Positions 2,934 to 62,893 of a stretch of DNA of 64,000 bases are shown one piece after another. A program made the position numbers and the translations under genes. Origin of the DNA: [Mycobacterium] zoologicum (lineage in GTDB: Bacteria; Actinomycetota; Actinomycetes; Mycobacteriales; Mycobacteriaceae); assembly GCF_020172665.1 (NCBI RefSeq), contig NZ_CP083985.1:3178040-3242039 (forward strand). The letters run 5' to 3'. The notes below the pieces were generated by a model. It did not search any database. It saw only the letters and a list, made by a program, of their open reading frames with translations, and was not told the DNA's origin. How positions within the stretch are numbered: the stretch's first letter is position 1; every line of letters begins with the position of its first letter.

Positions 2934-2961
2934 ACCGCACACTGATTGGAGGGCCCCGCCG

Positions 2962-3141
2962 ATGATGGTTCTGGTATGGATCATCGACCTTGTCGTCAGC
3001 TTGCTGCGCTACCTGGCCTCCCCCGAAGGCCGGCTGCTGCGCGTCGGCGTGCTGGTCGTGCTCTTTTTCGGTGCACTGGTGGGGGTTGCCGGGCTCATCT
3101 GGGGACTCGCCCAACTACCGCACTACCTGGCCGGACCGTAG
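2962..3141 (+). CDS. Small hydrophobic membrane protein, 59 aa
   Basis: A short open frame starting with ATG-ATG, behind a GGAGGG ribosome-binding site about eight bases upstream. The protein has a hydrophobic start (MMVLVWIIDLVVSLLRYL), a short charged turn (SPEGRLLR) and a second hydrophobic segment, so it probably spans the membrane twice. I do not recognise a family. It lies between the secreted DUF3298 gene and the first MpaB-type gene, with 28 and 23 bases of spacing, so it is very likely co-transcribed with them. Confidence 0.6.
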   Translation: MMVLVWIIDLVVSLLRYLASPEGRLLRVGVLVVLFFGALVGVAGLIWGLAQLPHYLAGP

Positions 3142-3164
3142 CCCAATCGAAAGGATCGCGGAGT

Positions 3165-4046
3165 ATGTCCACCCTGCATGAACTCACCACCGACCAGACG
3201 CGGATCAGCGTTGAGACCTACACCCCGCGCTGGGACGACGAACCCGTCAACCTCACCGAGGCACTGGACTTCTGGTCGGCCGCCGCATCGGCCGCCAACG
3301 TCGTCATGCAGATGAGCATGCCCGGCGTCGGACACGGCGTCGTGGAGAGCCGGGTGGAATCCGGTGCGCTGATGGAACATCCGTGGAAGCGGCTGCGCAC
3401 CACCGCGCAATACATGGCGGTCGCGGTGCTGGGCACCGACGAGGAACGCGACGCCTACCGCGATGCGATCAACGTCGCGCACCGGCAGGTCCGCTCCACC
3501 GATGAGAGTCCGGTCAAATACAACGCCTTCGACAGGGACCTGCAATTGTGGGTCGCCGCATGCCTTTTCGTCTTCTACGAAGACACCTATCAGCTGCTGC
3601 GCGGCAAGATGACCGAGGAACAGGCCGAGGAGTTCTACCACCACGCCTGGCCACTGGGCACCACCCTGCAGGTCACCGCCGACCAGTGGCCGGCCACCCG
3701 GGCCGAATTCGACACTTATTGGAACACCACCTGCCGAACACTGGAGATGGACGACGCGGTCCGCGAGTTCCTGCTGCGACTGATCGGATTGAAGATGGTC
3801 AATCCGCTCCTGCGAGTGCTGTTCGCTCCACTGTTGCGGTTCTTGACCATCGGGTTTCTCTCACCGGTCTTTCGGGAGCTGCTCGCCGTCGAATGGTCGC
3901 CGACCGAACAGCGCCGGTTCGAGAACCTCTTCCTGTTCGTGTCATTCGTCAACCGCTTCATTCCCCGGTTCATCCGCACCGCCAACTACGCCGTGCTGAT
4001 GGGCGATCTGCGGTATCGCCGCCGCCGGAACAAGTCGCTGATCTGA
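3165..4046 (+). CDS. MpaB/DUF2236 family oxygenase-like protein 1
   Basis: A 293-residue DUF2236 protein (ER-bound oxygenase MpaB/rubber oxygenase Lcp family; characterised members bind haem b). Supporting motifs are the YNAFDRDLQLWVAACLFVFYED helix region, the WPATRAEFDTYW segment and a basic C-terminus rich in Arg and Pro. Start ATG 3165 has AAAGGA upstream. Only two bases separate it from a second DUF2236 gene. Substrate unknown; placement in an mce3-type operon suggests a lipid or terpenoid substrate, which is inference. Confidence 0.75.
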   Translation: MSTLHELTTDQTRISVETYTPRWDDEPVNLTEALDFWSAAASAANVVMQMSMPGVGHGVVESRVESGALMEHPWKRLRTTAQYMAVAVLGTDEERDAYRDAINVAHRQVRSTDESPVKYNAFDRDLQLWVAACLFVFYEDTYQLLRGKMTEEQAEEFYHHAWPLGTTLQVTADQWPATRAEFDTYWNTTCRTLEMDDAVREFLLRLIGLKMVNPLLRVLFAPLLRFLTIGFLSPVFRELLAVEWSPTEQRRFENLFLFVSFVNRFIPRFIRTANYAVLMGDLRYRRRRNKSLI

Positions 4047-4048
4047 TC

Positions 4049-4852
4049 ATGTCGCGACGCCACGACGACGGATTGGGACCCCACAGCATCCTGTGGCATG
4101 TCCTGGCCGACCGGCGCTACCTGTTCGTGCTGCCCCGGGCGGTATGTCTGCTGATGCTGCATCCCGGTATCGCCGCCGGGATCACCGAGCACGCCCTGAT
4201 GCGTGATCGCATCTGGCTGCACAAGCGGCGCACCGTCACCCAGGCCGTCAACTACGCCTACTCCGACCGCGACATGAGTCCTCAGATGCGGTTCTCCCAC
4301 GAACATGTCAAAGGCGTCGACGCGTTCGGCCAGAAGTACCACGCACTGAATCCCGATACCTTCCATTTTCAGCACAGTGCCTACGTAGAGTCCCTATTCG
4401 TCATGGTCAACACATTCATCCGCCGGCTCGACGCCGACGAGCACGAGCAGCTCTACTCCGAATGCTGCTCCTGGTATCGCCGGTATGGCCTGTCCACCCG
4501 GCCGATGCCGGCGACCTGGCCCGAATTCGGCGAGTACTTCCAGGACTACTGTCGCGCAAACCTGATGTCCGGCCCGCACTTCGAGCCGTACCGCGAACAG
4601 ATCTTCGCCCCCACCGACTGGTGGATGCGCGCGGTCCCCCAACGTGCGATCCGCGCACTGCAGCATCCCCTGGCCCGAGAACTCACCGGAATCGACGTCA
4701 ACGCAGCCGACCGATGGTCGCTGCGGCAGTTCGTCCGGTTGAGCCAGATGTCGACGCTGACCCCCAGGCACCGCTGGAACGCCCGGGCGCGCGCCGCACT
4801 TCGCGCCAGCAGCGCAGCACAATCCGATAACACCGCTGAGCGCCGTCCGTGA
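4049..4852 (+). CDS. MpaB/DUF2236 family oxygenase-like protein 2
   Basis: A 267-residue DUF2236 protein with HEHVKGVDAFGQKYHALNPD followed by a TFHFQHSAYVESLF helix. The histidines in 'KYHALxPxxFxxxH' are typical of the family and several are absent from paralogue 1, so the two may be non-equivalent partners. It starts two bases after the previous stop and its own stop overlaps the regulator's GTG start (GTGA), giving a tight oxygenase-oxygenase-regulator unit. Enzymatic activity is not shown by sequence alone. Confidence 0.75.
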   Translation: MSRRHDDGLGPHSILWHVLADRRYLFVLPRAVCLLMLHPGIAAGITEHALMRDRIWLHKRRTVTQAVNYAYSDRDMSPQMRFSHEHVKGVDAFGQKYHALNPDTFHFQHSAYVESLFVMVNTFIRRLDADEHEQLYSECCSWYRRYGLSTRPMPATWPEFGEYFQDYCRANLMSGPHFEPYREQIFAPTDWWMRAVPQRAIRALQHPLARELTGIDVNAADRWSLRQFVRLSQMSTLTPRHRWNARARAALRASSAAQSDNTAERRP

Positions 4853-47948: not shown

Positions 47949-48806
47949 TCAAACCCCCGGGTCGAGGACGAAGTCATAGCGCAACGTGAAGCTGCCGTCG
48001 GGTTGCTCCACCGGGTTGAGCATCAACTCCGGCTTCACCGCGGTGGCGACATCGTCGTCGTTGTGCGGGTCGCCGGGGAAGTACAGCTGCGCGGTGAGCA
48101 GTTCGTGCCCCGGAGCGGACACCTTGACGTGCAGGTGCGCCGGGCGCCACGCGTGCCAGCCTGCCGCGGCGATCAGTTTGCCGCAGGCGCCGTCGGTGGG
48201 AATCTGGTACGGCGCGGGCCGGATCGTGGTGATCTCGAATCTGCCGTCGGCACCGGTGCAGAACGTGCCGCGCAGATTCCACTCCGGCAGCCCCGGCGCG
48301 TACTGCGAATAGAAGCCGTCGGAGTCGGCGTGCCAGAGCTCGACCTTGCCGGCGAGGGGTTTGCCGTCGGTGCCGGTGATGGTGCCCTGCCACACCAGCG
48401 GTCTGCCCTTCTCCTCCGGCCGCATCGGGACGGCGCCGCGGGCACCGCGCTCGGGCGCATCCGGCACGTAGTACGGCCCCTCGATGCTGCCCTTGTTGCC
48501 CTGCCGGCCAGATGTGGCGACCTCCTCGATGACGTGCTCGACCCAGACATCGAGGAACAGCGGCCATTCGCCGTCGGCGCCGACCTGGATCAGCCAGGCC
48601 TTGAGCGCGTTGTACTCGTCATAGCTGACCCGGTGGCGCCGGATGGTCGCGTGCACCGCGTCGAGCACCTCGCGGGCCAGCATGTCCACCCGTTCGACCG
48701 GGGTGTCTTTGACCTTCGCGAACGCGGATTTATCAAGGCTGAATCGTTCGGTCGCCGCATTGCCCGACGCTGCGGCGGTCGCCTGCGAGGTATCCATCGT
48801 GGTCAT
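47949..48806 (-). CDS. catA: Catechol 1,2-dioxygenase CatA
   Basis: A 285-residue intradiol dioxygenase. The Fe(III) ligands are visible: Tyr113 (EGPYYVPDAP), Tyr200 (RPAPYQIP), His224 and His226 (HLHVKV). An N-terminal helical dimerisation domain precedes them. It cleaves catechol to cis,cis-muconate. ATG 48806 has GAGGAGAAG upstream. It is the middle gene of catB-catA-catC, a common order in Actinobacteria. Confidence 0.95.
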   Translation of the reverse strand: MTTMDTSQATAAASGNAATERFSLDKSAFAKVKDTPVERVDMLAREVLDAVHATIRRHRVSYDEYNALKAWLIQVGADGEWPLFLDVWVEHVIEEVATSGRQGNKGSIEGPYYVPDAPERGARGAVPMRPEEKGRPLVWQGTITGTDGKPLAGKVELWHADSDGFYSQYAPGLPEWNLRGTFCTGADGRFEITTIRPAPYQIPTDGACGKLIAAAGWHAWRPAHLHVKVSAPGHELLTAQLYFPGDPHNDDDVATAVKPELMLNPVEQPDGSFTLRYDFVLDPGV

Positions 48807-48826
48807 CGTCTCTTCTCCTCGGTAAC

Positions 48827-49930
48827 TCAGGAATCGGTTCGGTAGCGTGCGAGCTTGTCGGGATCGATCGCCACCCCGAGTCCGTTTCCGGGCGGCACGT
48901 GCAGGACGCCGTCGCGGATCTGCAGCGGTTCGGCGAGCAGGTCGTCGCTCATGTCCAGGAAGTTGGACAACTCCCCGGCGCGGCGCGACGTCAGCTGGTA
49001 GGCGGCGCCGAACGTCACCGCGCAGGCCGTGCCGAGCTGACCGTCGATCTGGTTGCCCATCACCACCTCGACGCCGAGCCCCTCGGCGAGGTGGTGCACC
49101 CGCTGCGAGCCGGTGAACCCGGTGCGGGCGGTCTTGATCGAGATGGCGGTGGCCGATCCGCCGAGCACCTCGCGGGTGACCTCGGCCGGGGTGGGCACCG
49201 ATTCGTCGGCGATGAACGGCACGTCGAGCCGGCTCACCAGCCAGCGCCGGCCCAGCACGTCGTCGGCCGGGCACAACTCCTCGGCGAAAAGCAGGTCCAG
49301 ATCGGCCATCTCTTTCATCGCGCGCAGCGACTCCGAGGCCGTCCAGCCGCGGTTGCCGTCGACGTAGAGTTCGATGGCGTCCCCGAATCTCTCCCGCAGG
49401 GCGCGGACGACGGCGGTGTCCAGGGCGACCGGCCGGCGCCCCACCTTCACCTTGAAGGTGGTGATGCCGTAGGTATCCCGCATCCGCTCGGCGTCGGCGA
49501 CCATCACCGCCGGGTCGTCGAAGCCGAGCATGTGCGACACCCGCATCCGGTCGGTGAAGCCGCCGAGCAGTTCGCTGACCGGCAGCCCCAGCGTCTGCCC
49601 CAACGCATCCCAGATCGCCATGTCGACCGCGGCTTTGGCCGTCGGGTTGCCCACCGTGCGGGCCAGCCGGGCACCGGCCGTCTCGCGGTCGAGCAGGGTC
49701 AGCCCGATCAGCTGCGGCGCGAAGATCTGCTCGATCACCGCGATGATGCCGTCCTGGGTCTCGCCGTAGGTGAACGGCCGCGGCGGCGCCTCGGCGACAC
49801 CGACCACGCCGTCGTCGGTGTGCACCCGAACCAGGACGTGCTGGGCGACGTGCACCTCGCCGGAGGCGAACTTGAGCGGCTTGGTGTACGGGATGGCGAA
49901 CGGAATCACTTCCAGCGCAGTTATTTTCAC
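48827..49930 (-). CDS. catB: Muconate cycloisomerase CatB
   Basis: A 367-residue enolase-superfamily enzyme. FKVKVG contains the catalytic Lys-x-Lys, YVDGNRGW the first metal-ligand Asp, FAEELCP the Glu and FIADESV the next acidic ligand; SIKTARTG carries the second catalytic Lys. It converts cis,cis-muconate to muconolactone. The start ATG 49930 overlaps the LysR regulator's stop (ATGA). Confidence 0.93.
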   Translation of the reverse strand: MKITALEVIPFAIPYTKPLKFASGEVHVAQHVLVRVHTDDGVVGVAEAPPRPFTYGETQDGIIAVIEQIFAPQLIGLTLLDRETAGARLARTVGNPTAKAAVDMAIWDALGQTLGLPVSELLGGFTDRMRVSHMLGFDDPAVMVADAERMRDTYGITTFKVKVGRRPVALDTAVVRALRERFGDAIELYVDGNRGWTASESLRAMKEMADLDLLFAEELCPADDVLGRRWLVSRLDVPFIADESVPTPAEVTREVLGGSATAISIKTARTGFTGSQRVHHLAEGLGVEVVMGNQIDGQLGTACAVTFGAAYQLTSRRAGELSNFLDMSDDLLAEPLQIRDGVLHVPPGNGLGVAIDPDKLARYRTDS

Positions 49931-50829
49931 CCCACACCTCCGGTGGTCAGCATCGGAAACGCTGTCCGGACGACGCTGACGACCGCGTCGATGACCGGGT
50001 TGTCCTCACCGGCACGCCAGGCCAGCGACAGTTCGATGGTTCCGGCGTCGAGCAGTTCGCGGAACACCACGCCCTCCAGCGGCAGCCCACGCACCGATTC
50101 GGGCACCACGGCCACCCCCAGGCCCGCGGCCACCAGCGCCAGCAGCACCGCGGTGCCCGGCGCGAGATGTTCGCGGTGCGGGACGAATCCGGCTTGGCGG
50201 CAACTGCGCAGCACCGCGTCGTTCACCGCCGACTCGCGGCTCTGATAGGCGACGAAGCTCTCATTGCGCAGATCCGACAGCGAGACCACCGGCTCGACGG
50301 CGAGTCGATGGTCGGCGGAGACGGCCAGCACCAGCGGCTCGACGGCGATCGTGCGCAGTGCGAGTCCCTCGCCGAGCGCCGGGGGCCGCAGCACGCCCAG
50401 ATCCAGCGCGCCGGCGCGCAGCGCGTCGCACTGTGCCGGGGTGAGCATGTCGGCGCGAATCTCCAGATCGACGCCGGGCAGCTCGGCCTTGACCGCGCGG
50501 GCCAGCCGCGGCAGATGCGAGAACGCGGCCGTGCCGGTGATGCCCAGCCGGATCAGCCCGCTGCGACCGTCGGCGATCCGCCGCACCCCGCGGGTGGCCG
50601 CGGACACGCCCGCCAGGATGCGCACCGCCTCGCCCTGGAGGAATTCACCGGCGGGGGTGAGTGCGACCTGTCGGGTGGTCCGGGTGAAGAGGCTGACGCC
50701 AAGCTCGGCCTCCAGCTGCCTGATCGCGTACGACAGTGCCGGCTGCGCGACGTGGAGCTGGTCGGCCGCCTTGCCGAAATGGCAGGTCTCGGCCACTGCG
50801 CAGAAGTAGCGTAGGTGCCGCAGCTCCAT
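49927..50829 (-). CDS. catR: LysR-type regulator of catechol degradation (CatR/CatM-like)
   Basis: A 300-residue LysR protein. N-terminal helix-turn-helix: MELRHLRYFCAVAETCHFG, then ADQLHVAQPALSYAIRQLE. The two-lobed ligand domain carries STAF-like and VALVAAGLGVAVVPES motifs. The closest functional analogues (CatM/BenM) use cis,cis-muconate as inducer. Unusually it is the first gene of its own target operon, coupled to catB by ATGA, rather than divergent from it; it is divergent from benA instead, so one intergenic region could serve both operons. Confidence 0.82.
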   Translation of the reverse strand: MELRHLRYFCAVAETCHFGKAADQLHVAQPALSYAIRQLEAELGVSLFTRTTRQVALTPAGEFLQGEAVRILAGVSAATRGVRRIADGRSGLIRLGITGTAAFSHLPRLARAVKAELPGVDLEIRADMLTPAQCDALRAGALDLGVLRPPALGEGLALRTIAVEPLVLAVSADHRLAVEPVVSLSDLRNESFVAYQSRESAVNDAVLRSCRQAGFVPHREHLAPGTAVLLALVAAGLGVAVVPESVRGLPLEGVVFRELLDAGTIELSLAWRAGEDNPVIDAVVSVVRTAFPMLTTGGVG

Positions 50830-50943: not shown

Positions 50944-51031
50944 CGATGCCCAGTACACGACTAGGCATTTGCCTGGTGTGACCGTCGACACGCGGTGCGA
51001 GGGTTGAGGGATCAGACCGATGGAGGCCCCC

Positions 51032-52444
51032 ATGAGCGCACCGACCACATCTCGACTCGACCGCCTGGCGAGCATTCTCGACGACGCGGTGATCGACGAC
51101 CCCGAAGCCGGCAACTACCGGGTGCACCGGCAGATCTTCACCGACCCGGATATCTTCGAGCTGGAGATGCGCTACATCTTCGAGGGCAACTGGGTCTTCC
51201 TGGCGCACGAGAGCCAGATCCCCAACCCGGGCGACTACTTCACCACCGACATCGGCCGCAGCCCGGTGGTGATCACCCGCGACAAGGACGGCGAACTGCA
51301 CTGCCTGATCAATGCATGCGCACACCGCGGGGCCCTGCTGTGCCGGCGCAAGACCGACAACCGGTCGACGTTCACCTGCCCGTTCCACGGGTGGACGTTC
51401 CGCAACGACGGCAAGCTGCTGAAGGTCAAGCTGCCCGAAGGCGCCGGCTATCCACCCGAGTTCGACACCAACGGATCCCACGACATGACCAAGGTCGCCC
51501 GCTTCGAGAGCTACCGCGGCTTCCTGTTCGGCAGCCTCAACCCCGACGTGGTGCCGCTGACCGAATACCTCGGTGACTCAACCAAAGTCATCGACCTGCT
51601 GGTCGACCAGTCACCCCAGGGACTGGAGGTGCTGCGCGGCACGTCCACCTACACGCTGCACGCCAACTGGAAGGTGCAGATCGAGAACGGCGCCGACGGC
51701 TACCACGTGACCTCGGTGCACTGGAACTACGCCGCCACCACCTCACGGCGCGCCACCGGCGACTCCGCCAACGAGACCAAGGCCCTGGACGCCTCCAAGT
51801 GGGCCGAAGAGGGCGGCGGCTACTGGGCGTTCCCGAACGGCCACATCTGCCTGTGGACCCAGGCGGCCAACCCGCAGGACCGGCCACTGTACAGCGAGAT
51901 CGACCGGCTCCGGGAAACACACGGAAAAGCCAAGGGCGAGTTCATGGTTTCCGGATCCCGCAACCTGTGCCTGTACCCCAACGTCTACCTGATGGATCAG
52001 TTCTCCACCCAGATCCGCCGGATCAAGCCCATCTCGGCCGATAAGACCGACATCACCATCTACTGCATCGCCCCCAAGGGTGAGAGCGCCGAGGCCCGCG
52101 CCAACCGGATCCGCCAGTACGAGGACTTCTTCAACGCCAGCGGGATGGCGACCCCCGACGACCTGGAGGAGTTCCGCTCGGTGCAGACCGGCTTCGGGGC
52201 CCGCACCGCGCCGTGGAACGACGTCAGCCGCGGTGCCCAGCACTGGATCTCCGGCCCGGACCCGGTCGCCGAGTCCCTGGGCATGCACCACGTGGTGTCC
52301 TCGGGGGTCAAGGCCGAGGACGAAGGCCTGTTCGTCGTGCAGGACCAGTACTGGCTGGAGGCGATGCGCGACGCCGTGCAGCGCGAACGCGCCAAAGAAC
52401 TCGCCGGGACCAACGGATTCGACCGCACCCCCTGCGGCCACTGA
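51032..52444 (+). CDS. benA: Benzoate 1,2-dioxygenase large subunit BenA
   Basis: A 470-residue ring-hydroxylating oxygenase alpha subunit. The Rieske [2Fe-2S] ligands are C96-x-H98 and C116-x2-H119. The mononuclear iron site begins at [17 protein letters not shown] (His pair) with a downstream Asp. It inserts O2 into benzoate to give the 1,2-cis-diol carboxylate. ATG 51032 has TGGAGG just upstream; the in-frame ATG 51020 is an alternative. Confidence 0.95.
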
Positions 52445-52458
52445 ACGAAGGCATCGAC

Positions 52459-52983
52459 ATGACGACCACCGAATCCCCGCAGACCGCCACCAAGCACATC
52501 ACCCAGAACGCGATCGAGGCGTTCCTCTACCGGGAAGCCCGCTACCTCGACGACCGCGAGTTCGAGAAGTGGCTGGAGTGCTACGCCGACGACGTCGTGT
52601 TCTGGATGCCCGCCTGGGACGTCGACGACCGCCTCACCGAGGACCCGCAGACCGAGATCTCGCTGATGTACTACGCGAACAAGGGCGGCCTGCACGATCG
52701 GGTCTTCCGGATCCGCACCGAGCGTTCGTCGGCGACGTCGCTGCCCGACCCGCGCACCAGCCACAACATCGCCAATGTGGAGGTCATCGAGCGCCGCGGC
52801 GACGTGGTGGACGTCCGGTTCAACTGGCACACCATGTATTACCGCTACGAACAGGTCGACCCGTACTACGGGACGTCGTTCTACACCATCGACTTCTCCG
52901 GCGAGCAGCCCCTGATCCGGCGAAAGACCGTGGTGCTCAAGAACGACTACATCGACCACGTCGTGGACATCTATCACATCTGA
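52459..52983 (+). CDS. benB: Benzoate 1,2-dioxygenase small subunit BenB
   Basis: A 174-residue ring-hydroxylating beta subunit of the NTF2-like fold (AFLYREARYLDDREFEKWLE; WFMPAW-type core FWMPAWDVDD; RTSHNIANVEVIE). It holds the alpha subunits together in the oxygenase hexamer. It lies 14 bases after benA and 10 bases before the benC-benD gene. Confidence 0.95.
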   Translation: MTTTESPQTATKHITQNAIEAFLYREARYLDDREFEKWLECYADDVVFWMPAWDVDDRLTEDPQTEISLMYYANKGGLHDRVFRIRTERSSATSLPDPRTSHNIANVEVIERRGDVVDVRFNWHTMYYRYEQVDPYYGTSFYTIDFSGEQPLIRRKTVVLKNDYIDHVVDIYHI

Positions 52984-52993
52984 GGACTCGAAT

Positions 52994-55714
52994 ATGACCG
53001 TCACATCGCACCCGCAATCCTCGGTGGACTCCGCGAACGGCGCCAAGCTGCACCAGGTGGCGCTCGGTTTCGAAGACGGTGTCACCCGCTTCGTCGAGTG
53101 CGCCGAGGATCAGACGGTCGCCGGGGCGTCCTACCGCCAACGGGTGAACATCCCGGTGGACTGCCTGGACGGCGTGTGCGGCACCTGTAAGGCGTTCTGC
53201 GAGTCGGGAAGCTACGACCTGGGCGGTTACCTGCCGGACGCGCTCACCGAGGACGAGGCCGCGGCCGGCTACTGCCTGCCGTGCGTGATGAAACCGCGCT
53301 CGGATCTGGTGCTGCAGATCCGCAGCACCTCCGAGGTCGCCAAGACCCAGGCCACCGCCTACACCGGCACCCTGGCGCAACTCGAACGCCTGTCGGCGAC
53401 CACCATGGCGATCGCAGTGACGATCGAGCACCGGGCCGAGCTGACGTTTCTGCCCGGCCAGTACGCCAACATCGCGGTGCCGGGCACCGACCAGACGCGG
53501 TCGTATTCGTTCAGCAACGCCCCCAACGATGACCGGCTGACGTTTCTGGTCAAGCTGACGCCCGGCGGGGTGATGTCGACCTACCTCACCGATCGCGCCG
53601 CGGTCGGAGACCGCCTGGAGTTCACCGGACCGCACGGGTCGTTCTTCCTGCGCGAGACCGAACGCCCGGTGCTGCTGCTGGCCGGCGGCACCGGCCTGGC
53701 CCCGGTGCTGTCGATTCTGCGCAAGCTGCGCGACGACGGCAGCCGCCGCCGGGCCCACCTGATCTACGGGGTCAGCACCGACACCGACCTGGTGGCGCTC
53801 GATGCGATCGCATCGGTCGCCGACGGGCTGCCCGGATTCAGTTGGGATTACTGCGTTTCCGACCCGCACAGCACCGCGCGCAACCACGGGCCGGAGCGGG
53901 CGCACGTGATGAGCCTGATCTCCCCCGAGCACCTCTACGACGGCGACGTCGCCACCTACGTCTGCGGCCCACCGCCCATGGTCGAGGCGGTGCGCAAACA
54001 CCTCACCGACGCCCAGGTCCCGCTGACCGGCTTCTACTACGAGAAGTTCGCCCTGGCGGCGCCGGCCGCCGCGGAGGCGCCCGCCGCCCAACCGGAGGCT
54101 CCGGTGAGCCCGGCGGCCAGAGCGGTCCGCACCGAGGACCTGGTGCCCGCACCCGACGCCCGCGCCGTGATCGGCCAGCCGATGCTGCCCGCCGCCGACA
54201 TCGCCCCGTGGCCGGGCGCCGTGGTCACCACCGCCGAGGGCGACATCGCGTACCGGGTGCTGGGCCAGCTGCTGACCCCGGCCGGTGCCGGTGGCGACGT
54301 CGGCCTGGACGAGGACGGCGACCTGCTGCCGGCCTTCGAGGGCCGCGCCGTGATCGGCCAGGAGCTCTTTCCGGCCGCACCGCCGGAGATCACACCGCCC
54401 GAACCGGCGCCCGCCACCGTCGCCCCCGACGGTTATCAGATCGGCGAAGAGCATCCCGCGGTGCACGAATCCGACGCGATCTTCGAGGCGCGCGAGGCCC
54501 TGGAACTGGGCGCGGTGGAGCTGACCCTGGGCCGGCTCAGCGGCGGACAACTCACCGGCTATCGGCTGCTGGCCGAATCCACGCTGCCCTACGTCGACGG
54601 CGACCGACTCGTCGACGCCGCCGCGTACACCGATACGAACGCGGCCTTCCACGAATATCTGTTCACGATGACCGGTAACGAGCATCTGCTGCAGGCGTAT
54701 CAGGCACTGGGGGTGAAGGGCCGGATGGGCGAGGTGTTGCGCAACGCCACCTGGTGTCACCCGCTGTGCGCCCGCGACCACGTCGACATCGTCACCGCCT
54801 TCGAAGCCGGTGACCGCGCCGGCGCCCGAGCACTGATCTCCGCACACGCCGACCGGGCCAAGCAGACCATGCGCCGCGCCATGGCCGACACGCTGGCGGC
54901 CCGCCGGCCCAAACTCATCACCCCCGGACGTTTCGACGGCCAGGTCGTTGTCATCACCGGGGCGGCACAGGGCATCGGGGAACGCACCGCCCGACGAATC
55001 CATGCCGAGGGCGGGACCCTGGTGCTGGCGGATCGCTCCGAGCTGGTCGCCGGTCTGGCCGCCGAACTCACCGACACACCGGTCCCCGGCAATGCCCCGG
55101 CGCTGGCCGTCACCGTCGACCTCGAGCAGGCCGAAGGCGCCGCCGCCCTGGTGCGACAAGCACTTTCGCGGTTCGGTCATATCGACGTACTGATCAACAA
55201 CGTCGGCGGGGCGATCAACTTCAAACCGTTCACCGAATTCACCGACGCCGAGATCCGCGCCGAGGTGGATCGCTCGCTGCTGACCACCCTGTACTCCTGC
55301 CGGGCGGCGCTGCCGGCCATGGTCGCCCGCGGCAGCGGTGTGATCGTCAACGTCTCGTCGGCCGCGACCCGGGGGGTGCACCGCATTCCGTATTCGGCCG
55401 CCAAGGGCGGGGTCAACGCCATCACGGCCTCGCTGGCCATGGAGTACGCCGACGCCGGGATCCGGGTGTGCGCCACCGCGCCCGGGGGCACCCAGGCGCC
55501 GCCGCGGCGGATCCCGCGGGGCACTCCAGAGCTCACCGGCGACACCGAGCAGGCGTGGTTTCAGGCCCACATCGACCAGACGATCGACTCGTCGTTGCTC
55601 AAGCGCTACGGCACCCTCGATGAGCAAGCCGCGGTGATCTGCTTCCTGGCCTCGCAGGAGGCGTCCTACATCACCGGCACCGTGCTGCCGGTGGCCGGTG
55701 GCGATCAGGGCTGA
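52994..55714 (+). CDS. benCD: Fused benzoate dioxygenase reductase - FCD-like domain - diol dehydrogenase (BenC-BenD)
   Basis: A 906-residue single open frame with no internal stop. Residues 1-353 are BenC: plant-type [2Fe-2S] (Cys57, 62, 65, 97), FAD (RSYSFSN) and NAD (LLAGGTGLAP) domains, ending FYYEKFA. Residues 354-490 are a Pro/Ala linker in which R-A-V-I-G-Q occurs twice. Residues about 495-640 look like a GntR-family FCD ligand domain without its winged helix: EAREALELGAVELTL, AFHEYLFTMTGNEHL, with N549 (or D547), H553, H596 and H618 as candidate metal ligands. Residues 645-906 are a short-chain dehydrogenase (ITGAAQGIGE; YSAAKGG), matching BenD. It would both feed electrons to BenAB and oxidise the diol to catechol. 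BenC and BenD are normally separate proteins. Confidence 0.88.
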   Translation: MTVTSHPQSSVDSANGAKLHQVALGFEDGVTRFVECAEDQTVAGASYRQRVNIPVDCLDGVCGTCKAFCESGSYDLGGYLPDALTEDEAAAGYCLPCVMKPRSDLVLQIRSTSEVAKTQATAYTGTLAQLERLSATTMAIAVTIEHRAELTFLPGQYANIAVPGTDQTRSYSFSNAPNDDRLTFLVKLTPGGVMSTYLTDRAAVGDRLEFTGPHGSFFLRETERPVLLLAGGTGLAPVLSILRKLRDDGSRRRAHLIYGVSTDTDLVALDAIASVADGLPGFSWDYCVSDPHSTARNHGPERAHVMSLISPEHLYDGDVATYVCGPPPMVEAVRKHLTDAQVPLTGFYYEKFALAAPAAAEAPAAQPEAPVSPAARAVRTEDLVPAPDARAVIGQPMLPAADIAPWPGAVVTTAEGDIAYRVLGQLLTPAGAGGDVGLDEDGDLLPAFEGRAVIGQELFPAAPPEITPPEPAPATVAPDGYQIGEEHPAVHESDAIFEAREALELGAVELTLGRLSGGQLTGYRLLAESTLPYVDGDRLVDAAAYTDTNAAFHEYLFTMTGNEHLLQAYQALGVKGRMGEVLRNATWCHPLCARDHVDIVTAFEAGDRAGARALISAHADRAKQTMRRAMADTLAARRPKLITPGRFDGQVVVITGAAQGIGERTARRIHAEGGTLVLADRSELVAGLAAELTDTPVPGNAPALAVTVDLEQAEGAAALVRQALSRFGHIDVLINNVGGAINFKPFTEFTDAEIRAEVDRSLLTTLYSCRAALPAMVARGSGVIVNVSSAATRGVHRIPYSAAKGGVNAITASLAMEYADAGIRVCATAPGGTQAPPRRIPRGTPELTGDTEQAWFQAHIDQTIDSSLLKRYGTLDEQAAVICFLASQEASYITGTVLPVAGGDQG

Positions 55715-55736
55715 GCCGGCGATCGGCGAATACCAT

Positions 55737-58352
55737 GTGGCGGTGACCACACCGGCGTGCGTCGGCCGTGATCGGGAGCTGGCACAACTGAGCCGCCCGG
55801 CCGATGGCGCGCGCGTGGTGGCGATCCTCGGCCCGCCCGGGATCGGCAAGACCGCTCTGCTGCACCGAACCGCGGCTCGGCACCCCGGCCCGGTCTGGCG
55901 CGCCGATGCCGCGACCTGGGAGTCCGCCATTCCGGGGGCGGTGCTGCGACAGCTGTTGCAGGCGCCGGTGCCCGATGCGATACCCGCCGCCGCCGAGGAG
56001 GTGGCGGCCCGGCTCACCACGGCCGGCACCCTGGTGATCGTCGACGATGCCGACCACGCGGACGCGTTCTCCCTGCAGGCGCTGGGCACGCTGACGCGCC
56101 GCCACCGCGACCTTGCGGTGACGATCCTGCTCGCCGCGACGACATCGACTCCACTGCTGGCCGAACTCGCCGACGACGAGCTGGTGCTGGACGCCCTGGA
56201 CACCGCGGCGGTCACGGAGCTGGCCGGATCGCACGGCCGCATCCTGCATCCGGCGATGGCCGCCGCGCTGACCCGGCACACCCGCGGCAACCCGCGTGAC
56301 GTGCTGGCGCTGATCACCGAGTTGCCCGCTTCGGTGTGGGCGCAGGCGAATTCGCCGCTTCCGGCGCCCGCGCACGTCATCGAAGACGTCCGCGCGCGGC
56401 TGCACCGATGCGGCCCGGCAGGCCGTGAACTGGTGCAGGCGCTGGCAATCCTCGGCGACGACGAATCCCTGGGTGCGGCAGCCGAACTGGCGGGTCTGGC
56501 CGATCCGCTCGCCGCGGTGGACGACGCCGCCGCCGCCGGACTTCTCGCGGCCTCACCGCAATACCAACTGCGCCTTCGTGATCCGCTCACCCGGGCCGCG
56601 GTGATCGCGATCATCGGATTCGATGTTGCCGCGCAGATCCACCGTCACGCGGCGGCGATCCTCACCGATCCGGCACGTCGACTGCGGCACCTGGTCGCGG
56701 CCACACCCATCCCGGACGCCGAACTGGCCGAGCAGGTCGAGCGGCTCGCCCACCAGCGCGGCGCCGAGGGCGCCTGGGCCCAGGCCGCCACCCTGTTCCG
56801 TGACGCCAGCCGGCTGACCGCGGATCCGCTGCTGCACGACGACAGGCTGACCCGATCGGTGGACGCCCTGGTGGCGGCCGGTGACTGCGTGGGCGCCGGG
56901 GCGATGGTTCCGGCGGTGGAGAGCCTGCGCGAGACACCGCTGCGCGACGCCGTGCTGGCCTACCTGGCCGTGGTGCGCGGCCGCGGCGCCGAGGCCCAGG
57001 TGCGACTCGACCGCGCCTGGGACATCGTGAACACCGAACGCGACCCGGCGACCGCCGCCCTGATCGCCCAGCGCTACGTGCTGCACTCGCTGATGCGGTG
57101 CCGGGGAGCGGAATTGGTCACCTGGGCCGATCGTGCGATCGAGTTGGCCGGCGACCGGTCACCGGCCGGCGTCGAGGCCGCCGCCATCCGCGGCCTGGGG
57201 CTGGCCGCCACCGGTGGGGCCCGGGAGGCGATCGCCGGCTATGACGATCTGGCGGCCCGGGTCCGGCACGGCGCCCAGGCCCAGCGCGTCACGATGGGAC
57301 GCGGCTGGCTGCAACTGGCCACCGACGACTTCGACGGCGCCCGCAGCAGTCTGGAGAGCGCAGTGGCCATGGCTGAACTGGGCGGTTCGACGCGGATCAC
57401 GCTGTGGGCACTGGGCTGGCTGGCTCGGGTCCAGTTCGCGATCGGCGACTGGGATCGAGCGCTGCACAGCGTGGATCGCGGACGCGCCCTGGCCGCGGCC
57501 AGCGGGATCGTGCTGGTCGGTCCGCTACTGGAGTGGACGGCGGCGCAGATTCACACGCTGCGCGGCGACCGGGCGGCCACGGCCGCGGCGGTGACGGCTG
57601 CCGATGCTGTCGGCGGCGACTACGAGCTGATGCGGCTCCCGGCGCTGCTCGCCCGCGCCCAGGTCGCCGAGGCCGACTCCGACCACCCGACGGTGCAGCG
57701 GGTGCTGGAACCGCTGTCCCGGATGCCATGGGACACCGCGCTGCATCAGCCTGGCTTGTGGCCGTGGGCCGACGTGCTGGCGACGGCCCTGGTCGCCAAC
57801 GGCCGCCTGGAGGTCGCCGAGACCGTATTGGATACCCACGAGGAGGCCGCTCGCGGCCACCGTTCCGCGACCGCCCGGCTGCGTTCGGCTCGTGGCCGAC
57901 TGCTCGGCGCCCGGGGGGACCTGCCGGGCGCGATCCGCTCCTTCGACGAGGCGATCGCACTGCTCGACGGTCTGCCGCTGCGCTACGACCTGGCTCGGGT
58001 CAACTTCGCCTACGGCCAGACGCTGCGCCGGGCCGGCAAACGGCGTGACGCGGACACCGTGATCAACGCCGCCCGCGAGCTGTACCTGTCAGTCGGTGCG
58101 CGCTCCTTCGTGGAGCGGTGCGAACGCGAACTGAAGGCCGGTGGTGTCCACCAGATCCGCGGCCCGCGCAGCAACGTCGAGCTGACGCCACAGGAAGATG
58201 CGGTGACATCGCTTGTGGTCCAAGGACTTTCAAACCGGGACGTGGCCGCCGAACTCTACATCTCCCCCAAGACTGTGCAGTATCACCTGACCCGGGTCTA
58301 CGCCAAGCTCGGGGTGCGCTCGCGCACCGAGCTGGCCGCGCTGCGGCACTGA
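55737..58352 (+). CDS. benR: LuxR-family STAND ATPase regulator (BenR-like)
   Basis: An 871-residue LAL-type regulator. The P-loop is GPPGIGKTALL, followed by a Walker-B-type VIVDDADHAD and a long helical repeat region. The C-terminal LuxR helix-turn-helix is LTPQEDAVTSLVVQGLSNRD with AELYISPKTVQYHLTRVYAK. In Corynebacterium glutamicum a LuxR/ATPase regulator (BenR) immediately follows benD and controls ben genes; the order here is the same. The start is uncertain among GTG 55698, 55737 and 55743; I prefer 55737 because it lies after the benCD stop with GGCGAA upstream. Confidence 0.8.
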   Translation: MAVTTPACVGRDRELAQLSRPADGARVVAILGPPGIGKTALLHRTAARHPGPVWRADAATWESAIPGAVLRQLLQAPVPDAIPAAAEEVAARLTTAGTLVIVDDADHADAFSLQALGTLTRRHRDLAVTILLAATTSTPLLAELADDELVLDALDTAAVTELAGSHGRILHPAMAAALTRHTRGNPRDVLALITELPASVWAQANSPLPAPAHVIEDVRARLHRCGPAGRELVQALAILGDDESLGAAAELAGLADPLAAVDDAAAAGLLAASPQYQLRLRDPLTRAAVIAIIGFDVAAQIHRHAAAILTDPARRLRHLVAATPIPDAELAEQVERLAHQRGAEGAWAQAATLFRDASRLTADPLLHDDRLTRSVDALVAAGDCVGAGAMVPAVESLRETPLRDAVLAYLAVVRGRGAEAQVRLDRAWDIVNTERDPATAALIAQRYVLHSLMRCRGAELVTWADRAIELAGDRSPAGVEAAAIRGLGLAATGGAREAIAGYDDLAARVRHGAQAQRVTMGRGWLQLATDDFDGARSSLESAVAMAELGGSTRITLWALGWLARVQFAIGDWDRALHSVDRGRALAAASGIVLVGPLLEWTAAQIHTLRGDRAATAAAVTAADAVGGDYELMRLPALLARAQVAEADSDHPTVQRVLEPLSRMPWDTALHQPGLWPWADVLATALVANGRLEVAETVLDTHEEAARGHRSATARLRSARGRLLGARGDLPGAIRSFDEAIALLDGLPLRYDLARVNFAYGQTLRRAGKRRDADTVINAARELYLSVGARSFVERCERELKAGGVHQIRGPRSNVELTPQEDAVTSLVVQGLSNRDVAAELYISPKTVQYHLTRVYAKLGVRSRTELAALRH

Positions 58353-58374: not shown

Positions 58375-58403
58375 TTGACGCGTCCCGCGCTGCAACATAT
58401 ATT
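58375..58403 (+). promoter_or_regulatory. Strong promoter of the badI operon
   Basis: TTGACG (58375-58380) and TATATT (58398-58403) are separated by exactly 17 bases, a near-ideal housekeeping sigma factor promoter. Transcription should begin near 58410, giving an 80-base leader to the badI ATG. Such close consensus is unusual in this GC-rich genome and implies control by a repressor. Confidence 0.8.
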
Positions 58404-58438
58404 CATCGTTAATGAATCTGTATTCACTGATCGTGAAC
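58401..58438. promoter_or_regulatory. Tandem operator palindromes over badI promoter
   Basis: Two inverted repeats with the same architecture: ATTCAT-N5-ATGAAT (58401-58417, perfect) and ATTCAC-N5-GTGAAC (58422-58438, five of six pairs). Their centres (58409 and 58430) are 21 bases apart, two DNA turns on one face. The first covers the -10 end and the transcription start, the second the start downstream. The layout suits a dimeric repressor, for example TetR-type. The cognate regulator is not obvious in the window. Confidence 0.75.
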
Positions 58439-58488
58439 AACACCTCATTATCGTTTCGCCGACCACCCGGACCGGACCAGGAGCTCCG

Positions 58489-59286
58489 ATGAACACCGCC
58501 TACGAAGACATCACCTACGAGGTCGACGGCCCCGCCGCCGTCATCACGATCAACCGCCCGCACCGCTACAACGCCTTCCGCGGCCAGACGGTCGAAGAGC
58601 TGATCAAGGCGTTCCGGGCGGCCTGGGCCGATACCCGCGTCGCGGCGATCATCTTGACCGGGGCCGGCGAGAAGGCCTTCTGCACCGGCGGCGATGTCAA
58701 GCAGCGCGCCGAGACCGGTGACTACGGCCCCACCGAGAGCGGCATGTTCGAGATCGGCTACCTGCACAAGCTGATTCGCGATGTGCCCAAGCCGGTGATC
58801 GCCGCGGTCAATGGTGTCGCCGTCGGCGGCGGCCACGTGCTGCACGTGCTCTGCGACCTCTCGATCGCCTCACCGAACGCGAAGTTCGGCCAGGCCGGCC
58901 CCCGCGTCGGATCGTTCGACGCCGGATTCGGGTCGGCGTATTTGGCCCGGGTCGTCGGGGAGAAGCGGGCGCGGGAGATCTGGTATCTGTGCCGCCAGTA
59001 CGACGCCGCCACCGCCGAACGCTGGGGGCTGGTGAACTGGGTGGTCCCGGCCGAGCGCCTGCTCGACGAGGCGAAGGCGGTTGCCGCCGAGATCGCCGAG
59101 AAGAGTCCGACCGCACTGCGTTTCCTCAAGCAGTCGTTCAACGCCGACACCGACCACCAGGCCGGATTGAGCAACATGGCGATGTCGGCACTGGAGATCT
59201 TCGTCCACACCGATGAGGGCAGGGAGGGCGCCGCGGCGTTCGCCGAGAAGCGGCCCGCGGACTTCGGCCAGTTCGTCACGGCCTGA
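58489..59286 (+). CDS. badI: 2-Ketocyclohexanecarboxyl-CoA hydrolase-like crotonase (BadI)
   Basis: A 265-residue crotonase-fold enzyme closest to BadI/MenB: FCTGGDVKQRAETGDYGP, AAVNGVAVGGGHVLHVLCDL (oxyanion loop), AGPRVGSFDAGFGSAYLARV and ATAERWGLVNWVVP. BadI opens the ring of 2-ketocyclohexanecarboxyl-CoA to pimeloyl-CoA. MenB has the same motifs, but the menaquinone enzyme would not be expected beside badH/aliA. AGGAG lies five bases before ATG 58489. Confidence 0.8.
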   Translation: MNTAYEDITYEVDGPAAVITINRPHRYNAFRGQTVEELIKAFRAAWADTRVAAIILTGAGEKAFCTGGDVKQRAETGDYGPTESGMFEIGYLHKLIRDVPKPVIAAVNGVAVGGGHVLHVLCDLSIASPNAKFGQAGPRVGSFDAGFGSAYLARVVGEKRAREIWYLCRQYDAATAERWGLVNWVVPAERLLDEAKAVAAEIAEKSPTALRFLKQSFNADTDHQAGLSNMAMSALEIFVHTDEGREGAAAFAEKRPADFGQFVTA

Positions 59287-59308
59287 CAACGAGAACAGGA
59301 GCACCCCC

Positions 59309-60043
59309 ATGAGCGCAACGATTGCCCTGGTGACCGGCGCCGGCTCGGGCATCGGCAAGGCGATCGCGCTGGCCTTTGCCGCGCAGGGCGACCGGGTGGT
59401 CGCCGCCGATCTGGACCTGGCCGCCGCCGAAGCCACCGCCGGGCAATATCCGGGATTGATCACCGCGCTGCCGGTCGATATCGCCGACCGCGCCCGGGTG
59501 AACGAGCTGCGGGACCGTACCCACGCCGAAGTCGGCGTGCCCACCGTCGTCGTCAACGCCGCCGGCTGGGATCGCACCGACCAGTTCCTCAACGCCACAA
59601 CCGAATTCGCCGAGAAGGTGGTGGCGATCAACTACCTCGGTCCGGTGCACGTGTGCAGCGCGTTTCTGCCCGGGATGATCGAGGCCGGCGGCGCCGGGCG
59701 GATCGTGAACCTGGCCAGCGACGCCGGGCGGGTCGGCAGCGCCGGTGAGACGATCTACGCGGGCGCCAAGGGCGGTGTCATCGCGCTGACCAAGTCGTTG
59801 GCCCGGGAGATGGCGCGGCACCAGATCACCGTCAACTGCGTCTGCCCCGGCCCCACCGACACCCCGCTGTTCGCCGCCCAGCCCGAGAAGCTGAAAGAGG
59901 CTCTGGTCAAAGCGATTCCGTTTCGGCGACTGGCCCGGCCCGAGGAAGTCGCCGCGCCGGTGCTGTTCTTCGCCTCGGACGCCGCGTCGTTCATCACCGG
60001 TCAGGTGATCAGCGTCAGCGGCGGCCTCACCATGGCCGGCTGA
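59309..60043 (+). CDS. badH: 2-Hydroxycyclohexanecarboxyl-CoA dehydrogenase-like SDR (BadH)
   Basis: A 244-residue classical short-chain dehydrogenase: TGAGSGIGKAIALAF (NAD loop), VNAAGWDRTDQFLN (NNAG region, where the GWD is BadH-like), IVNLASDAGRVGS (Ser), YAGAKGG (Tyr-x3-Lys). It would oxidise 2-hydroxycyclohexanecarboxyl-CoA to the 2-keto ester, the substrate of BadI. It follows badI after 22 bases. Confidence 0.75.
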   Translation: MSATIALVTGAGSGIGKAIALAFAAQGDRVVAADLDLAAAEATAGQYPGLITALPVDIADRARVNELRDRTHAEVGVPTVVVNAAGWDRTDQFLNATTEFAEKVVAINYLGPVHVCSAFLPGMIEAGGAGRIVNLASDAGRVGSAGETIYAGAKGGVIALTKSLAREMARHQITVNCVCPGPTDTPLFAAQPEKLKEALVKAIPFRRLARPEEVAAPVLFFASDAASFITGQVISVSGGLTMAG

Positions 60044-60050
60044 TGCGACC

Positions 60051-61721
60051 ATGACCGCCGGCTACGACCCGAGCGTCTACCGGACGTTCTTCGAGCGGGA
60101 CTTCACCTATCTCAACGGGTTTCGCCGTAACACCGCCCGGTACGGCGACCGCCCGGCGCTCTGCGATCCCGACAGCGGGTATCAGCTGACCTACGCCCAG
60201 CTCGGCGCCCGGGTCGACCGACTTGCCGCCGGGCTGCTGGCCGTGGGCGCCGGACCCGGCGAGGTGATCGCCTACCAACTGTTCAACGGCCCGGAGTTCG
60301 CCGAGCTCTATCTGGCCACGCAGGCCGCGGGAATGGTCGGATCACCGATCAATTACCGGCTGGCCGCCGGCGAGGTGGCCCACATCCTCGACACCAGCCG
60401 GCCGGGGGTGTTCGTCTACGACGGCCGGCAGGCGCCGGTGCTCGGCGAAGCGCTGGACCGTGCGACGCATAGGCCGGCGGTGATCGTGGCCGTGGGTGAC
60501 GCCGAGCCGATCCGGGTTTCGGGCTCGACGGTGCTGCGCTACGCCGAACTGCCCGCCGACCAGTCGCTGCCCGACTGCGGTCGTACCGTCTGGGATGAGA
60601 CCACCCGGCTCTACACCTCGGGGACCACCGGCATGCCGAAAGCGGTGCCGCTCAACGGCATGATCGAGATATTCTCCGCCCACGACGTGATCATGCACTT
60701 CCCGCTGACCGCCGAGGACGTCACGCTGAACATGACGCCCTGGTTTCATCGGGGCGGATTGTATTCGGGCGGGCCCAATCCCACGTTCTACGTCGGCGGG
60801 CAGGTCGTCTCGATGAGCGGTTTCGACGCCGACCGCACCCTGGACGCGGTCGCCGGGCGCGGCGTCACGTTCCTGATCGGTGCGCCTACCAATCTCGCGT
60901 TGCTGGCCGCGGCGCAGCAGGACCGCCCGCGGGATCTATCCAGCCTGCGTGGAATCGTCACGATGGGCGCCCCGCTGGAGCGCGACGCGGCGCTGCACTA
61001 CCAGCAGGTGCTGCACCCGCGGATCTTCAACGGCTACGGCAGCACCGAGGGTTTCTGGAACACCTTCCTGCGTCCGGCCGATCTGCCCGAGCACGCCGGC
61101 AGTGCCGGACGGGCCTGCACCGACGACGACGTGCGGGTGGTGCGGCTGCACCCGGATCGGCTGGCCGGCCCCGACGAGCTGGTCGCAGCCGATGGCCACG
61201 ATGTCGGCGAGGTGATCGTGCGCTCACCCAAGTGCAGCGTGACCTATCTCGACGCCTCGGAGTCACAGCAGCAGAAGTTCCGAGGCGGCTGGCTGCACAT
61301 CGGCGATCTGGCCACCTGGGACACCGACGGATACCTCACGATCGTGGGCCGCAAGGACGACATGTTGGTCTCCGGCGGCGAGAACGTCCACCCGATTGCG
61401 GTCGAGGAAGCCATCAACACCCATCCGGGAGTGCGGGATTCACTGGTGGTCGGGGTGCCGCACCCGAAGTGGGGGCGGATGGTGGTGGCCTACATCGTCG
61501 CCGGCCGGCCGGCTCCCAGCGCTGAGGACCTCGACGACTTCTGCCGCAACCATGCAATGCTGTCGACGTTCAAGCGACCCCGCGCCTACCGTTTCGTCGA
61601 CATGCTGCCGGTGTCGGCCACCGGCAAGAAGCTGCACCATCAGGCAACCGTCAGGGCCGCCGAGGAATTCGCCGCCGGCGAGTTCATCCGGCCCACATCC
61701 ACAGTAAGGACGCCCCGATGA
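60051..61721 (+). CDS. aliA: AMP-forming acyl-CoA ligase, cyclohexanecarboxylate-CoA ligase-like (AliA)
   Basis: A 556-residue acyl-AMP synthetase: YTSGTTGMPKAVPL (P-loop), FNGYGSTEGFWN (A5 motif), GWLHIGDLATWDTDGYLTIVGRKDDM (A7/A8, Arg hinge) and KKLHHQ (C-terminal Lys region: ATGKKLHH). It activates a carboxylic acid as its CoA thioester. Neighbours badI, badH and acyl-CoA dehydrogenases point to cyclohexanecarboxylate; an aromatic acid is the alternative. The next gene overlaps by four bases (ATGA). Confidence 0.75.
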   Translation: MTAGYDPSVYRTFFERDFTYLNGFRRNTARYGDRPALCDPDSGYQLTYAQLGARVDRLAAGLLAVGAGPGEVIAYQLFNGPEFAELYLATQAAGMVGSPINYRLAAGEVAHILDTSRPGVFVYDGRQAPVLGEALDRATHRPAVIVAVGDAEPIRVSGSTVLRYAELPADQSLPDCGRTVWDETTRLYTSGTTGMPKAVPLNGMIEIFSAHDVIMHFPLTAEDVTLNMTPWFHRGGLYSGGPNPTFYVGGQVVSMSGFDADRTLDAVAGRGVTFLIGAPTNLALLAAAQQDRPRDLSSLRGIVTMGAPLERDAALHYQQVLHPRIFNGYGSTEGFWNTFLRPADLPEHAGSAGRACTDDDVRVVRLHPDRLAGPDELVAADGHDVGEVIVRSPKCSVTYLDASESQQQKFRGGWLHIGDLATWDTDGYLTIVGRKDDMLVSGGENVHPIAVEEAINTHPGVRDSLVVGVPHPKWGRMVVAYIVAGRPAPSAEDLDDFCRNHAMLSTFKRPRAYRFVDMLPVSATGKKLHHQATVRAAEEFAAGEFIRPTSTVRTPR

Positions 61722-62893
61722 CCACCCCCGCCTTCGACGCACTCGACCCGCTGAGCCTGGATTCGCTGCTGTCCGACGACGAGATCGCGGTGCGCGACAC
61801 CGTCGCGAAGTTCTGCGCCGAGCACGTGTTGCCGCACGTCGGCGAGTGGTTCGAGATCGGCGACCTGCCCGCCCGCGAGCTCGCGCGGGAGTTCGGCAAG
61901 CTCGGTCTGCTGGGGATGCACCTGCACGGTTACGGCTGCGGCGGGGCCTCGGCCGTGCACTACGGACTGGCCTGCACCGAACTCGAGGCCGCCGACTCCG
62001 GCATCCGTTCGCTGGTGAGCGTGCAGGGCTCGCTGGCGATGTTCGCGATCTACAACAACGGCTCCGAGGAGCAGAAGCAGCACTGGCTGCCGGGCATGGC
62101 CAGCGGGGAGCTGATCGGCTGTTTCGGGCTGACCGAACCCGACGTCGGCTCCGACCCGGCCGCCATGAAGACCCGGGCCCGCCGCGACGGCTCCGACTGG
62201 ATACTCAACGGCCGCAAGATGTGGATCACCAACGGATCCATCGCCGACGTCGCGGTGGTATGGGCAGCCACCGACGACGGCATCCGCGGCTTCATCGTGC
62301 CCACCGACACCCCCGGATTCAGCGCCAACACGATTCACCACAAACTGTCGCTGCGCGCCTCAATCACCAGCGAACTGGTGCTCGACGACGTGCGACTGCC
62401 CGCCGAGGCGATGCTGCCGCAGGCCCGCGGCGTCCGGGGCCCGCTGGAGTGCCTGTCCGAGGCACGTTATGGAATCATCTGGGGCGCAATGGGTGCCGCC
62501 CGATCCGCCTGGCAGGCCGCCCGCGACTACGCCACGGCGCGCATCCAGTTCGGCAAGCCGATCGCCGGTTTCCAGCTCACCCAGGCCAAACTCGTCGACA
62601 CCGCCGTCGAGTTGCACAAGGGCCAGCTGCTCTCGCTGCACCTGGGGCGACTCAAGGACTCCGTCGGGCTACGACCCGAGCAGGTCAGCTTCGGCAAGCT
62701 CAACAACACCCGCGAGGCGATCGAGATCTGCCGCACCGCACGAACCATCCTGGGCGGCAACGGGATATCGCTGGAGTACCCGGTGATCCGGCACATGGTC
62801 AACCTGGAGTCGGTGCTGACCTACGAGGGCACCCCCGAGATGCACCAGCTCATCCTCGGCAAAGCCTTCACCGGGCTTGCGGCATTCGACTAG
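61718..62893 (+). CDS. gcdH: Glutaryl-CoA dehydrogenase-like acyl-CoA dehydrogenase
   Basis: A 391-residue acyl-CoA dehydrogenase with GcdH features: ADSGIRSLVSVQGSL holds Arg97 and Ser98, the pair that binds the distal carboxylate of glutaryl-CoA. MVNLESVLTYEGTPEMHQL holds Glu370, the catalytic base, and ICRTARTILGGNGI is typical. GcdH oxidises and decarboxylates glutaryl-CoA to crotonyl-CoA, which would finish pimeloyl-CoA degradation. A role on another dicarboxyl-CoA of the same path is possible. Confidence 0.75.
   Translation: MTTPAFDALDPLSLDSLLSDDEIAVRDTVAKFCAEHVLPHVGEWFEIGDLPARELAREFGKLGLLGMHLHGYGCGGASAVHYGLACTELEAADSGIRSLVSVQGSLAMFAIYNNGSEEQKQHWLPGMASGELIGCFGLTEPDVGSDPAAMKTRARRDGSDWILNGRKMWITNGSIADVAVVWAATDDGIRGFIVPTDTPGFSANTIHHKLSLRASITSELVLDDVRLPAEAMLPQARGVRGPLECLSEARYGIIWGAMGAARSAWQAARDYATARIQFGKPIAGFQLTQAKLVDTAVELHKGQLLSLHLGRLKDSVGLRPEQVSFGKLNNTREAIEICRTARTILGGNGISLEYPVIRHMVNLESVLTYEGTPEMHQLILGKAFTGLAAFD

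Follow-up and report, generated by a model that had tools for sequence, protein, structure and literature searches.

The window, by which we mean the whole stretch of 64,000 nucleotides analyzed here, carries a benzoate locus in which benC and benD are fused. On the forward strand, the gene for the dioxygenase large subunit, benA (51020..52444; TIGR03229, 769.9 bits, just below the cut-off of 780.95), was followed by that for the small subunit, benB (52513..52983; TIGR03232, 267.1 bits with a cut-off of 225.55), whose start was placed from the TIGR03232 match. Next on this strand were a benC-FCD-benD fusion gene encoding 906 amino acids in one uninterrupted frame (52994..55714) and a gene for a large ATP-binding LuxR-type regulator (55698..58352; GerE and AAA_16), the start of which is uncertain. 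The reverse strand carried lysR, a catB-like gene, and catA (47952..50829), with catA over its cut-off and catB under, so that the row benA-benB-(benC-FCD-benD)-luxR diverges from lysR, catB-like, and catA. The arrangement was the same on a Tsukamurella plasmid (L147), including the order of the divergent lysR, catB-like, and catA genes, and an HTH regulator followed the fusion there. A relative of the LuxR-type regulator lay downstream in nine of 15 loci (L132-L135, L140, L141, and L144-L146). A 1225-aa open frame on the reverse strand (52937-56614) spans the whole fusion gene and is probably a by-product of the high G+C content.

Pfam assigned Fer2, FAD_binding_6, NAD_binding_1, FCD (residues 496-620), and adh_short, in this order, to the 906-aa protein. 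The BenC part (residues 20-353; 53051..54052, forward strand), delimited by Pfam and alignment, contains the 2Fe-2S, FAD, and NAD(H) domains and exceeded the NF040810 equivalog cut-off (448.3 vs. 430 bits), while the aligned BenD part, a short-chain dehydrogenase (residues 646-906; 54929..55711, forward strand), exceeded that of NF040811 (392.3 vs. 380 bits). Cysteines 57, 62, 65, and 97 of BenC and Y800, K804, T655, G656, and A658-G662 of BenD were invariant in all 39 aligned sequences, with A657 nearly so, and by this alignment the motifs of both enzymes are intact in the fusion. Between them lie a variable linker of low model confidence (residues 356-480; 54059..54433, forward strand), defined by alignment, model, and motif count, and the FCD domain (residues 481-643; 54434..54922, forward strand), which abuts BenD directly in the fused forms (residues 643/646). 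The reading frame and the profile matches thus agree with the preliminary description, which had proposed a single 906-residue frame joining BenC, FCD, and BenD. The BenC of known structure, the 338-aa benzoate dioxygenase reductase 1krh, has neither FCD nor BenD.

The middle segment, at first described only as FCD-like, proved to be a true FCD domain. It matched PF07729 with 56.2 bits against a curated cut-off of 24.3, and its structure prediction (pLDDT 92.6) gave an all-helical FCD fold matching GntR-type effector domains; a chance helical resemblance was ruled out by these profile and fold matches. As had been noted from the sequence, no winged helix precedes the domain, since a Pfam search at E<=0.01 returned no PF00392 match over all 906 residues, and the protein therefore does not classify as a GntR transcription regulator, a class recognized by its N-terminal winged helix. 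The fusion shares the FCD fold with the VanR/FadR-type GntR regulators PS5454, Atu1419, TM0439, and DhdR, but unlike them has no DNA-binding domain. The ligand pattern of the metal-binding FCD subgroup (N/D-x3-H, H, H) was present at the proposed residues N549, H553, H596, and H618. Of 259 distinct sequences carrying both BenC and FCD, all but one (258) retained this quartet, and R500, E504, and T625 were invariant in all 259; the census indicates that the four-residue metal site is under strong constraint. The Ben ligand spacing (4/43/22) was compared with the corresponding quartets of PS5454 (N144-H148-H192-H214; PMC7674646) and Atu1419 (N137-H141-H192-H214; PMC7797058). We infer that the Ben FCD binds a divalent metal of the Zn or Ni type, and its reading as a carboxylate sensor is plausible.

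A protein search with the middle part scored 7994 proteins and retrieved 683 at E<=1e-3; the listing covers the best 120. In a scan of named genomes, 80 loci were kept out of 251 stretches encoding a relative, and the domain search found the triple fusion in every one of the 80. The same domain order, which the preliminary description had suggested seeking in other Actinobacteria, was thus found in many genera, including Mycolicibacterium, Gordonia, Williamsia, Nocardia, Amycolatopsis, Saccharopolyspora, Prauserella, Nocardioides, Kribbella, Flexivirga, Kitasatospora, and others. Among 83 triple-fusion proteins, mean pairwise identity was 0.774 for the FCD, 0.738 for BenC, 0.771 for BenD, and 0.330 for the linker, and FCD identity exceeded BenC identity in 2741 of 3403 pairs. 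Ten pairwise comparisons of five loci from the window's own group gave dN/dS values of 0.046-0.147 for the FCD, 0.107-0.185 for BenC, and 0.096-0.191 for BenD, indicating that the FCD evolves as slowly as the fused enzymes, under purifying selection. A hidden stop or sequencing error between BenC and BenD was ruled out by the recurrence in many genera together with this selection, and with 683 relatives from one search and 80 of 80 loci, there is next to no chance that the fusion is an artefact of sequencing or of accidental FCD resemblance. One of these loci encodes, upstream of the fused gene, another BenC-like reductase of more distant kinship (172 bits; L050:2864 onward).

The fusion is uncommon in the sampled genomes. 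A Ben-type or related FCD occurred in six of 396 genomes of the phylum sample (own genome included), two of the six being flavin reductases. BenC was found at E<=1e-60 in 47 of 397 genomes of the order sample (own included); the class sample, which shares genomes with it and is not independent of it, gave 14 of 394. The assertion that BenC and BenD are normally separate proteins held for all four of the proteobacterial plasmid loci opened but not for the order sample, where the stop-to-stop frame with the close BenC measured 749-1394 aa in 40 of the 47 genomes (counted by length, at least G742 and G678 being without FCD) and 357-661 aa in the other seven.

Relatives differed in how the three parts are combined. 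BenC stood without FCD in the four proteobacterial loci opened, and BenC and BenD were separate, again without FCD, in L132, L133, L135, L137, and also L138. BenC-FCD with BenD as its own gene was seen in all three BenC-FCD loci opened (L134, L136, and L141), and a further 61 proteins, most of 518-556 aa, combined FCD and BenC domains with no BenD on the chain; their named sources included Kocuria, Micrococcus, Citricoccus, Pseudarthrobacter, Nesterenkonia, and Brevibacterium. Two BenC-BenD fusions had no FCD, namely L109 and L140 (the same gene as L113), and the latter retains a stretch, AFEAGDRPAAR, that resembles the FCD's own AFEAGDRxxAR and is likely a deletion scar of the domain. FCD-BenD without a scored BenC was limited to six fragment-like proteins. 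Looking for standalone Ben-type FCD genes, we obtained 42 short proteins, most of which appear to be pieces of fused genes, together with P0221, a protein annotated as GntR (33%). In L138, BenD was spread over two frames (2894-4524, reverse strand), possibly a pseudogene or a sequencing error.

A BenC tree, obtained by a quick search with SH-aLRT support only and rooted on four proteobacterial BenC sequences, placed all BenD-fused rows together with L132/L133 in one clade (SH-aLRT 100), and the BenC-FCD rows L134 and L136, which belong to the window's family, fell just outside it. The tree suggests that BenC acquired the FCD first and BenD afterwards. It required two changes for the BenD fusion, readable as one gain and one loss, and five for the FCD. 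The positions of L109, L140, and the pair L132/L133 inside the fused clade suggest that the FCD was lost there three separate times on this quick tree, with the starred branches forcing one change only for L109 and L140, whose separate losses rest on moderate support. Since the FCD appears to have been lost within the fused clade, any gating by it would be dispensable. The FCD-less rows L135 and L137 branched near the base, so that one FCD gain with more losses and two gains are indistinguishable, a single origin being without starred branch support. In an FCD tree of 143 columns, with eight starred branches of 55, the 25 sampled Ben FCDs formed one clade (SH-aLRT 92, not starred) beside flavin-reductase FCDs and one GntR, a placement favored by the choice of the flavin-reductase FCDs and P0221 for their likeness to Ben FCDs. 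In the alignment with P0221, the GYQIGEEHP stretch ahead of the Ben FCD lies opposite GYYV, where the winged helix of that GntR ends, as if a winged helix had been cut away there.

The linker was variable apart from a recurrent motif. The window's linker contained two R-x-[IVL]-x-G-Q-x-x-[FLW] copies (residues 390 and 451) and a degenerate third ending at Q425. In 196 distinct triple-fusion linkers, the motif R-x-[IVL]-x-[GA]-Q-x-x-[FLW] was counted 353 times, and 190 linkers had at least one copy, with 0.3 expected after shuffling. Its consensus, A-R-x-[IV]-A-G-Q-x-[MVL]-[FL]-P, recurred at 54059-54433 of the window and in the linkers of L015-L094 within otherwise variable sequence. This G-Q motif was kept in both FCD-less fusions (L109 and L140) and occurred once, at the end, in the free BenC of the L132/L133 type, the other BenC-only rows being devoid of it. 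Only seven BenC-FCD rows carried it, three of which end at the locus edge and four of which appear partial. As a guess, the motif might be a docking peptide. The linkers of the fused forms measured 71-198 aa (median 132) and those of L134, L136, and L141 measured 25-46 aa. The full-length model was poor (pLDDT 64.6, pTM 0.39) and yielded no usable FCD-BenC contact; its contact listing covers mainly BenD and does not inform on the FCD.

Related FCDs were also found on flavin reductases, in flavin reductase-(GntR)-FCD proteins from distant genomes of the phylum (L142:4102-5331, L143:4053-5300, L191:3299-4522, and L192:2958-4166). These resemble the Ben fusion in bearing such a domain on an oxygenase-type reductase, but the reductase family differs from BenC. 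A PF00392 winged helix was detected between reductase and FCD in L142 and L192, with none at the Pfam level in L143 and L191. An HpaB-family oxygenase gene adjoined the fusion in two of the four (L142 and L143); when the L142 HpaB served as query against the flanks retrieved for L191 and L192, no such gene turned up. The L142 protein had matches at E<=1e-40 in four of 396 genomes of the phylum sample, and published work on such fusions was not found in the open-licence literature. Other long FCD frames were not supported as enzyme fusions. In the four from G741, the flavin-reductase query matched over its winged helix and FCD alone, and the one in the own genome (L169) looks, by eye, like a normal GntR preceded by a long frame.

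The idea that an enzyme using a transcription-factor sensor would be new was not upheld. In 2019, benC and benD of Gordonia alkanivorans YC-RL2 were stated to be fused along with an FCD domain typical of GntR regulators, in a benABCD operon flanked by LysR and LuxR regulators (PMC6362181). The accessible portion of that paper treats it as an annotation remark, calling the FCD C-terminal, without metal site, distribution, history, or mechanism. The product of a Rhodococcus benC has likewise been named an FCD domain-containing protein (PMC11858498). In HpaC (C1), the reductase of the 4-hydroxyphenylacetate 3-hydroxylase of A. baumannii, a C-terminal MarR domain restrains flavin reduction, and 4-HPA relieves this self-inhibition at least 30-fold (PMC10816480). 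Like BenC-FCD, HpaC serves an aromatic oxygenase as reductase and has a transcription-factor ligand domain following its catalytic part, but its sensor is a MarR rather than an FCD domain, it is the flavin reductase of a two-component monooxygenase rather than a Rieske-system reductase, and it is not fused to the next pathway enzyme as BenC-FCD is to BenD. The fusion is therefore already known, as is an oxygenase reductase bearing a sensor taken from a regulator, and the newness was overstated. The open-licence literature yielded no functional study of the Ben FCD.

BenC passes electrons from NADH to BenAB, and BenD returns NADH on making catechol from the diol acid, itself a carboxylate. In Rieske dioxygenases, NADH may be lost and O2 reduced with no product being formed. 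Our leading reading, which we hold tentatively, is that of a two-enzyme fusion whose FCD serves the reductase as an allosteric gate opened by benzoate or the diol acid. Through its metal, the FCD would bind benzoate or the cis-diol acid by the carboxylate, and ligand binding would shift the FCD helices and lift a block in BenC, either on hydride transfer from NADH to FAD or on transfer from the 2Fe-2S center to BenA. NADH and O2 would then be spared when the dioxygenase is empty, and BenD on the same chain would give back NADH from the diol, making the BenC/BenD pair redox-neutral on one polypeptide. Such a gate would act like the substrate-relieved MarR domain of HpaC, the precedent for its mechanism.

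The conserved quartet, the invariant R500, E504, and T625, and an FCD as conserved as the enzymes are in keeping with this gate. The BenC-FCD forms with a separate BenD gene in L134, L136, and L141 point to the reductase rather than the dehydrogenase as its target, as does the tree, since an FCD tied to BenC first would serve the reductase; the clade position of the Ben FCDs beside flavin-reductase FCDs, two of four next to HpaB-family oxygenase genes, also fits. Against it stand the BenC proteins that do without an FCD (four proteobacterial loci and L132, L133, L135, L137, and L138) and the long variable linker of the fused forms, which is awkward for tight allostery. The metal, moreover, may be merely structural, as the triple-His mutant (H3A) of Atu1419 had a melting temperature lowered by almost 20 degrees (PMC7797058). 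If the gating reading is true, a substrate sensor placed on the electron donor would counter uncoupling directly, and it would be present in many aromatic-degrading actinobacteria. The naturally occurring forms that have or lack the FCD, or have or lack the BenD fusion, are ready controls, which makes the gating question directly testable. A wider picture, somewhat more doubtful than the gate itself, is that a captured GntR-type metal/carboxylate sensor lets electrons flow from a Rieske-dioxygenase reductase to the oxygenase only once benzoate is there, that flavin reductases feeding HpaB-type oxygenases recruited the same FCD subfamily, so that regulator-derived sensors on oxygenase reductases would be a repeated solution to the uncoupled consumption of NADH and O2, that the fused BenD completes the NAD(H) cycle within a single chain, and that the G-Q linker motif docks the assembly to a partner.

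Unlikely, but the strongest of the alternatives, is an FCD that has lost sensing, keeps its metal for structure, and serves for dimerisation, assembling BenC and BenD (and BenAB) for NADH recycling and diol hand-over. The use of NADH by BenC and its production by BenD suit such a scaffold, as do the mere two changes needed for the BenD fusion on the BenC tree. The FCD domains of VanR-type regulators build dimer interfaces that are stabilised by metal (PMC7797058), but R500, E504, and T625, invariant in 259 of 259 sequences, are not obviously needed by a pure dimer interface. The FCD also seems older than the BenD fusion and would consequently not have arisen to hold two enzymes together.

It is improbable that the FCD instead works on the BenD side, capturing the unstable cis-diol acid, or sensing muconate or catechol, for channelling to or feedback on the dehydrogenase. 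Its direct junction with BenD and the carboxylate of the diol acid would suit this role, but the loci with BenC-FCD and a separate BenD gene, the 61 FCD-BenC proteins with no BenD on the chain, and the restriction of FCD-BenD to six fragment-like proteins speak against it. Very improbable is a moonlighting FCD that pairs with a full GntR-FCD regulator or reports the enzyme state to transcription: FCDs are regulator domains and the own genome has four other FCD matches at E<=1e-8, but the protein is without a winged helix, and the window locus, like L147, has its own LysR and LuxR-type regulators.

Past the LuxR-type gene, the window encodes a MenB/BadI-like hydratase, a BadH-like dehydrogenase, an acyl-CoA ligase, and an acyl-CoA dehydrogenase (58375-62893), all scoring under their equivalog cut-offs, which perhaps form a cyclohexanecarboxylate route feeding the same regulon.
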